From Oryzias latipes (Eukaryota; Chordata; Actinopteri; Beloniformes; Adrianichthyidae), in NCBI RefSeq assembly GCF_002234675.1, contig NC_019859.2, positions 13,717,483-13,781,482 on the forward strand: a DNA stretch of 64,000 bases. Reading direction: 5' to 3'. Of this stretch, positions 21,501-63,922 are shown piece after piece (the stretch's first letter is position 1; every line of letters starts with the position of its first letter). The notes under the pieces are model-generated. The model searched no databases, was not told where the DNA came from, and saw only the letters and a program-made list of their open reading frames with translations. Position numbers and translations under genes: made by a program.

Positions 21501-24002
21501 ATTTGTATGTACAGTGAATATTGATCACTCAGTGACTGCTGTGTTTTGGGGGGCATCAGGTCTGTGGCACAGCAATTTTAAGTTGAAACAACAAAAAGAA
21601 TTCTTCACAAAACTGGATGGGGATCTCATAAGTGTGCCTGTCTTGTATCACCCAAAATACCGGGCAGTTGCAAGAACTGTAGCGGAGCTGAATGCACGGG
21701 TGAGGATCACTATTCATTGATCTTTTGGCAAAATTACTTACTAATTATTTTGGATATTTAGGGAAATAACATAATAATTACATCAGTTTATAGAAATCCT
21801 ACAATCTTTATGAATTAGGTTTAAATAGAGCATTATACTTTATCCAACGTAATTTGACATTTACTCACCAATGCAAAAATGGGAAAACAAAGAAATTCAT
21901 TTGTGTAAGAAAAGTCACATTTGGTTATTTGTGTGTCCGACTGCTAAAGAGTGAGTTGCTTCTGTTCTATGGAAAAACACTTGTCAGCCAGTTGGGATAT
22001 CTGCAGTTTGATTCACTGCCCTACTTGACAAAGCGTCAGAAAACAGACTGAATCCTAAGCTAATGAGCCTCTGTGCATGACTGAGAAGACAAATAGTTTT
22101 TGCTGAAATCTACAAGGAATTAACTGCAGATGCTCTGCCAAAAAAAAAAAAAAAAAGATTATTTCCTCTTCTTTTTGGAGGAGACACTGCGTGCAGAAAT
22201 TAGTGGAAAAAATAGCAAAGCAAGACTTAAATATTTTGCTGTTAGTTTGAGGACGTGTTTAAAGGCCCGCTCTGATCATCTTTTGTTCTAATACTCAAAG
22301 CATTTCATGTGGTCTTTTAATTATGATTATGCCGTTTTCAGGCAAAATCAAAAACCTGTGTGGTTTTCAGGACATAGTTTCTGCAGAGCAGCAGGAGTTC
22401 ATTAGAAATTTGCCACTGAGTTGTGGGTGGATCTGTGGGAGCGTAGTAAGCCTGCTCCCATTTCCCATCATCATCATTTGTTTACACTCTCTCCCTCTAG
22501 CTTACAGCCCGTCACAACCCGAACCTAACATTACTGGTACAACAAAAATGGAGAGCAATATTACAGCTATCCAGCCGTACAGTTCTCAGCCAGATGCCAG
22601 CTCAGACAAGGACAACAAAGACGTACATGGGTCTAGTTGTCTGCAAGCAGCTGTATCAGAATGGAGAGGAGCAGAAAGCTTGTGGCTTGCCGTTTCAGCA
22701 ACTACACCACAGCTACAAACTTTTTCCAATGACACTTTTTCATCTGCTCTTGATTCTGCACAATTTGAATAAAGAAATAATAAAAAAATCCAATTTTAAT
22801 CCTAATTTTCTTTATATGTCTCCTCCATCATGAAAACAATGCCACGACAGCATGTTAAAAACACCAAAAATGTGATTTCCATCAGAGGGGGACTTCAACA
22901 AGTCGTAAATGTCAGAAGTGTTACTTGTTGGTTGAAAAAAAGAGCAGAATTTGCTTCAGCTGTTTGTGTACCATATCATTTTATTTATTTAAGTTATTTT
23001 TTTAAATTGAATTGAGCAAGGAAACACATTTTGGAGTAAAAATTACCATTTGGTTGTACATTCGAGCAAAGTTTCTTATAGTAACTTTTAAAAGCTGCAT
23101 AACAAATATTTTGAAGAGATCTGTCTGAACGGATGTTTATGAATAAAATAGTTTAATATGACTTTAAATAACCTCCAATTTGTTTATAGATTATATGAAT
23201 AGACAGAAAGAAATGGATGTAATGAGTGAATATTAGCTATGTGTTACCAATGAACCAAAAGTGCTCCTGTGCAGTCCGAGCTGTGCTACATTCTCATTTA
23301 AACCTTTGTACTTCACTCATTTAATATGCTTTTTTACGTAAACAGGTGGCAAAGTTGTCCCTCACAGGTGACAACAGTCTGTACATCCTTCTGCCTCGCA
23401 ACAACAAACTAACCGAGCTGGAGCAAGTGGAGGCGAGCATGACGGACTCATCTGTGCGTAAAATGATAGAGCAAATGAAAGAGGCCTCTCCAGAGCAAAT
23501 TGAGATGACTCTGCCGCTGATCAAGCTGGATGTAGAGTCAGACATCAAGATACTTATGATGAAATTAGGTTGGTTCATCTTCTATGCTTTTCTCTTTCTC
23601 ACTCTGTGTAAAGCACAGGCTTCTGCTCCACTACTTTCAGTCTGTATAATACTCCCCAGAGCCTCTGAGGACTTTTGGAAACATGTTTTTAAGATGCTCT
23701 TTGATCTTTCTGAATTTGATTCCATGCCCTTGACTATCCCCTCCTTTCCCTCAGGCCTTTCATCACTTTTCGAGGGGGCCAACTTGTGCGGCCTTTTCCC
23801 TGGAGAGAGGGTGGTTCTGAACAGTGCCAAGCATAAAGCCTTCCTGGCACTGACTGAAAAGGGAGTTCAGGCTGGGGCTGTCACCAGCGTGTCCATTTCC
23901 CGTAGCTTTCCTGTTTTTTCTGCCCTGCGACCTTTCGTCCTGCTGCTGTGGAACGACCAGGCAGATGTGCCGCTTTTTATCGGCAGAGTGACCGAGCCAT
24001 AA
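18558..24002 (+). CDS. serping1: Plasma protease C1 inhibitor with two N-terminal Ig-like domains
   Basis: Ten coding exons: 18558-18605, 18676-18784, 19207-19368, 19512-19811, 19932-20138, 20969-21112, 21230-21433, 21560-21699, 23346-23568 and 23755-24002. They join in frame to 594 codons plus stop. Residues 1-~19 are a signal peptide. Ig-like domain 1 spans ~20-106 (C35, W49, C88 in GEYECF) and Ig-like domain 2 ~108-206 (C125, W139, C190 in DAGLYTCES). The serpin domain is ~225-594. Cys216 and Cys223 (CEGFDEEC), Cys297 (DFNC) and Cys524 (NLCGL) match the four cysteines forming two disulfides in human C1-INH. The reactive loop EKGVQAGAVTSVSISR-S has the same length as the human loop, with P1 Arg562 (codon 23901-23903). 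By family knowledge it is secreted and traps C1r, C1s, MASPs, kallikrein and FXIIa. Teleost orthologs carry Ig domains in place of the mucin-like mammalian N-terminus (recalled). Confidence 0.95.
22259..22898 (+). mobile_element. TTAAAGTCCCACT family, copy A (near full length)
   Basis: In serping1 intron 8. The start TTAAAGGCCCGCTCTGATCA and the end AGAGGGGGACTTCAA are decayed versions of the family termini. Internal landmarks are GTGGTCTTTTAATTATGATT, GGACATAGTTTCTGCAGAGC, CTAGCTTACAGCC, a protein-like segment from 22548 (AIQPYSSQPDASSDKDNK) and TTTGAATAAAGAAAT. No complete transposase is present. Confidence 0.75.
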
Positions 24003-24095
24003 AACATGGAAAGGGAATGTTTAATCCAGAAAGAAGTCTCAGTTTTTACTTGATGAGTCAACAAACATTGATGTGGATTTTCTTTAACCACGACA

Positions 24096-24101
24096 AATAA
24101 A
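24096..24101 (+). promoter_or_regulatory. serping1 polyadenylation signal
   Basis: AATAAA 94 bases after the stop codon; it implies a very short 3' UTR ending near 24120. Confidence 0.7.
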
Positions 24102-62849: not shown

Positions 62850-63312
62850 CTGCAGAAGGACAACAAAAAGAAATGAAAGCAGGGGTTTGGAACTGCCCGA
62901 TCAAAACAAATAAAGGACACAAAGGATCATAACTATGCGGAATAAATGTGTGGACAAAAAAACCAAGAAAGGACAAAGAAAGACACAAAAAAAAGAGAGC
63001 GGCATCATTTATCTTTGTCCCTCAGGAAATCTCTGACATCTTGCAGATAGAGAGTGAAAGGACGGTGGGCTTGTCTTGCCTCACCTGTTCATGCCTCTGC
63101 CTCTCTGGCTGATAAGAGAGTTGTGCTGACACCAGTCAGACCTCCAAAAGAAGCGCCGTTTCAAATTCAGTGCAACACCACAGCAAAATGATAGAGCAAC
63201 ACATCTGCCTGATAACGTCGAAAATGAGAATCATTTAGCCATTTTTAATTTGGTGCATGTGATTTTGATATTATTTTACTATTTTAACAAATCTATCAAA
63301 CCCCAGTGGAAT

Positions 63313-63922
63313 CTGAAAGTCCCACTCTTATCATGTTTTGATCTATTGTTAAAGTGTCCCCTGTGGTCTTTTAATTATAATTATGCTGTCATTAGTCTAA
63401 ATCAAAAACCTGTGTCGTGTTCTAGGACATAGTTTCTGCAGAGCAGCAGTAGTTCATCAGAAATTCACCTCTGAATTGTGGGCAGGACCGTTGGCACAGT
63501 ACAAGACTTCCCTCACTTCCCATCATCTTACACTCTCTTCCGCTAGCTTACAGCCCCTCACAGCCCCAATTGAACATTAGCGGTGCAACAAAAACGTAAC
63601 AAGTTTGATTCAGATGCAGCTCAGATGCGGAAAATAAAGATGTACACGGATGTACGTGGTCGTCTACAAGTGGTTGAATCAGAATAGAGCAGAGCAGGCA
63701 GCTTGTGGCATGCAGATGTAGGTCGTCACACCTACTAGCTTTGTCAAACCCATTTTTCCAAATGCTCCTGATTTACAATGATTCAAATATAGAAACACTC
63801 AAAAATCTTAATTAAAATTAAAGCTTAATTTTCTGTCTTTATGTCCTCCATCATGACAAAAATTCCACAATAACATGTTAAAAACACAGAAAAACACCAT
63901 TTTTATCAAAGTGGGTCTTTAA
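63313..63922 (+). mobile_element. TTAAAGTCCCACT family, copy I (full length)
   Basis: Starts TGAAAGTCCCACTCTTATCA and ends AAAGTGGGTCTTTAA, the best-preserved pair of inverted termini. Internal order is the same as copy A: GTGGTCTTTTAATTATAATT, GACATAGTTTCTGCAGAGCA, CTAGCTTACAGCCCCTCACA, GATGTACACGGATGTACGTG, ACATGTTAAAAACACAG-like. The protein-like segment is broken by stops. Confidence 0.75.

Follow-up and report, generated by a model that had tools for sequence, protein, structure and literature searches.

An old, TTAA-flanked MITE family of probable Kolobok type in a 64-kb window of the Oryzias latipes genome

Nine loci of one repeat family in the window

The window analysed here, a stretch of 64,000 nucleotides of Oryzias latipes (NC_019859.2, positions 13,717,483 to 13,781,482), contains an Ig domain (19472–19849), two serpin exons (21205–21495 and 23325–23999) and a rabphilin/DOC2-like C2 exon (33759–34067). 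Between the two serpin exons lies one copy of a repeat, at 22259, that the first-pass annotation had reported at nine loci as a family of ~600-bp elements with inverted ends. Of the placement of copies inside two genes, also reported there, the case of 22259 was examined. The nine loci do form a single family. All align with one another by blastn, every interval having matches among the rest (for example 22259 with 63313, E = 2e-95; 43010 with 22259, E = 4e-48; 51576 with 63313, E = 1e-14), and the family recurs genome-wide. A profile search also recovers all nine, a result that is circular for the window, as the profile was partly built from the same copies; at E ≤ 10 neither the reversed window nor any of ten Markov windows yields a profile match. 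The two ends singled out earlier as the best preserved, those at 43616 and 63922, are inverted complements with one mismatch in 13 bases, as judged by eye.

While all nine loci are real, the extents originally assigned to them hold only in part (Table 1). Only 22259–22898 and 63313–63922 are full length, and 36931–37306, 39467–39646 and 51559–51793 are truncated. Two intervals first given as copies, 43010–43616 and 47108–47660, contain family sequence only at 43296–43616 and 47323–47660; a degenerate ~30-bp minisatellite adjoins each (43087–43290 and 47113–47324), with 43010–43086 assigned to neither.

Table 1. Copies of the repeat family and adjoining minisatellites in the window
Feature	Position	Strand	Remarks
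Full-length MITE copy	22259–22898	+	Both ends; non-CpG K2P 0.136
KolX-exon-1-like piece inside copy 22259	22548–22664	+	MESNITAIQPYSSQPDASSDKDNKDVHGSSCLQAAVSEW
Copy with internal deletion, two ends kept	32050–32495	+	blastn, profile
Copy without left part and without final right-end bases	36931–37306	-	Consensus ~226–621
Left-end fragment	39466–39650	+	Consensus ~2–181
Degenerate ~28–30-bp minisatellite	43087–43295	-	Joins left half near start-codon region
Left half	43296–43616	-	Consensus 1–319; terminus TTAAAGTCCCACTCC
Degenerate ~31-bp minisatellite	47113–47323	+	Related to 43087 array, 66–78% in pieces
Right half	47323–47660	+	Consensus ~298–637
Left-half copy, internally gapped	51559–51793	-	Consensus 1–288
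Near-full copy, highest divergence, eroded ends	57813–58389	+	K 0.27
Full-length copy	63313–63922	+	Right terminus AGTGGGTCTTTAA

The two half-copies that adjoin minisatellites are complementary halves in opposite orientation, with the arrays at about the same internal point. Judging from this arrangement, a single full element would result if the intervening ~4 kb were inverted and one of the breaks fell within the array; the divergences of the halves (0.203 for 43296–43616 and 0.145 for 47323–47660) neither favour nor exclude such an inversion. A whole-genome search with the 47108 minisatellite returned only itself, missing even the related 43087 array, and is therefore no guide to the rarity of the array.

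Consensus, abundance and age of the family

A consensus was derived from 57 pieces and a majority sequence from 62 pieces, some copies being split into two pieces. Both comprise 637 columns, the first and last of which lie one base inside the outer TTAAs. After CpG restoration, the ~637-bp element reads TTAA-AGTCCCACTCCGAT ... ATCGGAGTGGGTCT-TTAA, with a 14-bp imperfect TIR containing one mismatch. When TTAA is included and CpG decay allowed for, the end TTAAAGTCCCACTCCGAT and the inverted end TTAAAGACCCACTCCGAT agree at 17 of 18 bases. Column counts show A in 28 of 30 and G in 25 of 30 left ends directly after TTAA, and C in 34 of 40 and T in 37 of 40 right ends directly before it, such that the termini of the consensus and of most ends counted (5'-AG...CT-3') fit the pattern 5'-RR...YY-3'. 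An exact TTAA is found at 18 of 29 left and 24 of 37 right ends that are reached within 3 columns (one flankless left end was left out), in a set of flanked copies that is biased towards well-kept ones, coming mostly from the best matches of the genome search with 63313. These data bear out the first reading of the repeat as a non-autonomous DNA transposon that has inverted ends and targets TTAA. The element is short (637 bp), has inverted ends, lacks a transposase and is present in high copy number, as is characteristic of MITEs. Both ends are present in 21 of the 62 aligned pieces, only the left end in 14, only the right end in 20, and neither end in 7.

The searches covered 734 Mb in 25 contigs. 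With the copy at 63313–63922 as query, 45 further match rows at 39 other places were obtained when 40 of 11,151 first-look candidates were scored; the 68-residue translation of the consensus frame described below gave 28,099 first-look candidates, of which 150 were scored and all 150 match. To estimate density we used fifteen 10-kb stretches at arbitrary round coordinates, drawn only from contigs C1–C15 of the 25, counting split pieces as one copy and leaving out one 15-bit match. This sample contains 14 copies in 150 kb, many of them short or internally deleted, with at least one copy in 9 of the 15 stretches, compared with 9 copies in the 64 kb of the window. Extrapolation from the 150-kb sample yields about 69,000 copies (Poisson 95% interval 37,000–115,000); when five copy-free stretches around young Kolobok elements (see below) are added, giving 14 copies in 200 kb, the estimate becomes about 51,000 (28,000–86,000). 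The family represents ~2–2.6% of the sampled DNA.

The copy density in the window is 1.5–2 times that of this small sample, and the family occupies 5.8% of the bases in the window versus 2.6% in the 150-kb sample. The Poisson probability of at least 9 copies in 64 kb is 0.15 at the rate of 14 per 150 kb and 0.04 at 14 per 200 kb; for the 41.7-kb interval of the first-pass annotation, which was chosen post hoc, it is 0.018. The high density claimed there is consequently retained in a mild form, with no striking excess, and the comparison indicates a genome-wide repeat that is locally somewhat above average.

The family is old, with a divergence of ~0.13–0.17 at non-CpG sites. The median non-CpG K2P distance to the consensus is 0.151 for 43 of the 62 pieces (at least 150 sites each) and 0.1725 for the 16 of those 43 that belong to the window or to the sampled stretches. 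The 802 cells at 23 sites inferred to be CpG, picked for the co-occurrence of CA and TG, contain 195 CG, 217 CA and 241 TG. A second base occurs in more than 28% of copies at about 23 non-CpG columns, which suggests that there was probably more than one source or subfamily.

A short frame in the consensus and a young Kolobok in the same genome

Starting at column 288, the consensus contains a frame of 68 codons, followed by a stop and then AATAAA; it has no frame longer than 100 residues, which is what a MITE would be expected to show. The ATG is intact in 15 of the 33 copies with bases at that site. Between 11 and 14 of 37 copies are gapped over columns 292–296. Column 292 belongs to the second codon; it has a gap in 14 of the 37 copies and C in 11, and its CG in the consensus comes from the CpG rule. 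The 68-residue consensus peptide has no Pfam match at E ≤ 1.

The Pfam domain P2RX7_C is found above its cut-off at five genomic loci, all of them copies of one young Kolobok element. These copies measure 5.0 kb (L014, 4703–9729), 5.1 kb (L016), 4.7 kb (L017) and 3.7 kb (L018), while that of L015 runs off its stretch. They are 98.4–99.4% identical in the fetched blocks and 94–99% in longer blocks, and judging from this identity the element was possibly active recently. L014 has the ends TTAA-AGTGTGGGTGACATGG...GCATGGCATCCACACT-TTAA (TTAA-AGTGTGG...CCACACT-TTAA) and carries KolX on one strand and, on the opposite strand, a THAP protein (Pfam THAP domain, E = 3.5e-18) and a piece with weak similarity to Mutator (E = 5e-4, which falls short of the Pfam cut-off). 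KolX begins with an ATG at base 203 of the element, and its three exons joined match P2RX7_C with E = 2.5e-19 and solved P2X7 chains with E = 9e-8.

Within the MITE frame, a stretch of 15 residues matches LQPYRFEPFCESEED of exon 1 of this KolX. The local score is 48 compared with a shuffle mean of 25; 8 of 5000 shuffles score as high as 48, and the values for the remaining five frames are 19–25. At the DNA level the best match between the MITE and the young Kolobok has E = 0.18. The residues EW of the frame (38–39) resemble AW of KolX exon 1, which we read by eye as the end of that exon, directly before the cysteine motif; no splice donor was seen by eye after EW in the MITE consensus. In strand and in its closeness to the left end, the KolX-like piece corresponds to KolX exon 1 of the young Kolobok. 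The resemblance is weak though rightly placed, and we regard the link between the MITE frame and KolX exon 1 as moderate, not strong.

Single-sequence searches for a parent with the ends of the MITE, by transposase or by KolX, found none, and the young family has other TIRs. With the transposase (11 candidates scored) we obtained 5 rows, confined to four of the five young loci, and with KolX exon 2 (7 scored) only the five young loci. Probably the parent has died out, or has decayed beyond the reach of single-sequence searches.

Classification, rival readings and possible origin

Kolobok elements are described as having a TTAA target and 5'-RR/YY-3' ends, unlike piggyBac, and Kol0 elements of this superfamily as encoding KolX, which is related to the C-terminal ballast of P2X7 (Kojima and Bao 2022; PMC9587614). 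The MITE resembles Kol0 elements with KolX, as that source presents them, in its TTAA, its 5'-AG...CT-3' ends and its KolX-exon-1-like piece; it differs in having neither a transposase nor a ballast domain, in its size of ~637 bp and in that the resemblance to KolX is short. The best reading of the data, in which we place high confidence, is an old non-autonomous MITE-type family of the Kolobok superfamily. Its likely parent lineage was also the source of part of the vertebrate P2X7 receptor.

That the family belongs instead to the piggyBac superfamily, with which it has the TTAA target in common, appears unlikely to us. A separate MITE in the same genome has (T)TAACCCTTGTGCTATC ends, which we take to be of the piggyBac kind. 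The ends of the present MITE begin with AG, which is the Kolobok rule as given in PMC9587614, in contrast to piggyBac.

Another scenario, which we consider quite improbable, is that the family is a transposed mini-gene, whose copies brought along an ATG, an N-terminal portion of KolX and an AATAAA signal, and that some of them were exonised. If it were true, tens of thousands of copies could have seeded short KolX fragments or exons in host introns, a small-scale echo of the event by which KolX gave P2X7 its ballast domain. Across all aligned pieces, codon positions 1, 2 and 3 of the frame have substitution rates of 0.167, 0.155 and 0.157; for the first 39 codons the rates are 0.151, 0.118 and 0.155, position 2 being low there; the right non-coding flank shows a dip of like size (0.164, 0.158, 0.133). 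We therefore see no clear coding constraint on the 68-codon frame; selection on it, though conceivable, is set aside, and the KolX-like piece is most likely baggage.

A non-autonomous element of hAT, Harbinger/ISL2EU or MULE, in which TTAA would merely be part of the TIR, is very unlikely. Such a reading draws on the lack of an empty site among 28 joined-flank pairs compared with the fetched sequence of the genome, because of which the duplication of TTAA is something that we infer. Beyond TTAA, however, only 1 of the 15 two-ended copies shares 2 bp and none of the 15 shares 3, 4, 6 or 8 bp, and 26 of the 120 flanking positions (8 per copy) are identical. Of the two flanking signatures proposed at the outset, TTAA is the sole flanking repeat found, and hAT, with its 8 bp, is rejected by the flank comparison. 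The motif PYxFEP, which we had assumed to point to ISL2EU/Harbinger, does not sustain that assignment, since KolX is a documented Kolobok protein and no 2–3-bp duplication is seen. A SINE-like retroposon with inverted ends by chance, for which one could cite AATAAA in the right part of the consensus, is scarcely credible given fixed, inverted-complement ends in many copies and no variable target duplication; the signs of retroposition that had been named in advance, 5' truncation and poly-A, gave truncation on either side and no A-tail by eye at 40 right ends.

Several known elements can be compared with this Kolobok-type MITE. Xenopus Kolobok elements are described in PMC6004289 as having TTAA and AG ends, T2-MITEs as having TTAA, and Xmix as carrying an amplified internal segment, Xstir. 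By that account T2-MITEs and Xmix, which are Kolobok-related, are like the present family in TTAA, RR ends and genome predominance. Their ends differ, AGGRR in T2 versus AGTCC here, T2 being compared by description only, and the amplified Xstir of Xmix may be set beside the two half-copies that adjoin minisatellite here (PMC6004289). In zebrafish, a cyprinid, 128,817 Kolobok copies are reported to occupy 33.1 Mb, or 2.41% (PMC4746887), a comparable abundance in terms of counts only, as the zebrafish copies are not necessarily of this family; in view of that figure an abundant cyprinid Kolobok MITE is to be expected. The young Kolobok is like the MITE in TTAA, AG ends and KolX exon 1 near the left end, but has a THAP transposase and another TIR (AGTGTGGGTGACATGG), and its copies are 94–99% identical, compared with a divergence of ~0.15 to the consensus among MITE copies.

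We propose that an autonomous Kolobok parent with KolX on the plus strand lost its interior, leaving a MITE in which a short filler joins the right end to a left part that extends through KolX exon 1. A Kolobok transposase acting in trans would have bound the TIRs, excised the element and inserted it at TTAA, insertion copying TTAA on either side of the MITE. The burst of transposition would be long over, with copies now decaying in introns and intergenic DNA. One young-Kolobok copy could by analogy be a possible model of such an origin. L018:2892–4403 is a shortened copy flanked by TTAA. Its left part, ~433 bp from the left end, includes KolX exon 1 almost whole; 693 bp of filler that match no part of the full element follow, and then 388 bp from the right end.

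A dense and previously unassigned repeat can now be placed, with high confidence, as an old TTAA-targeting Kolobok-type MITE, and one genome is seen to contain both a young Kolobok with KolX and an old derivative in which, seemingly, KolX exon 1 alone is kept. This may be of use in the annotation of such fish genomes, with fewer false calls of 'P2X7-like' genes. The family may already be catalogued. A literature text search with three short end strings gave none on the subject by title among the matches listed, and the 14-base left-end string is absent from the papers listed. One conserved 26-mer has no exact match in the viral and prokaryote collections.

Other repeats occur in the window. 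A frame at 58681–59427 matches the Pfam entry 'ALKBH8_N' (E = 5e-13); by eye it looks like the tail of a LINE reverse transcriptase, not an ALKBH8 gene. Nesting of the 57800 copy in a LINE was considered and rejected, as no LINE-like frame is seen by eye to continue on its left side. A (TATC)n microsatellite of 271 bp with 100% matches (TRF) lies at 59609–59879, soon after the LINE-like frame. A second repeat, of ~215 bp, is found at 1647–1881, 5845–6058 and 56856–57076 of the window and also in the stretches L026, L030, L031 and L033; its ends, (T)TAACCCTTGTGCTATC and GATAGCACAAGGGTTAA, are presumably piggyBac-like.
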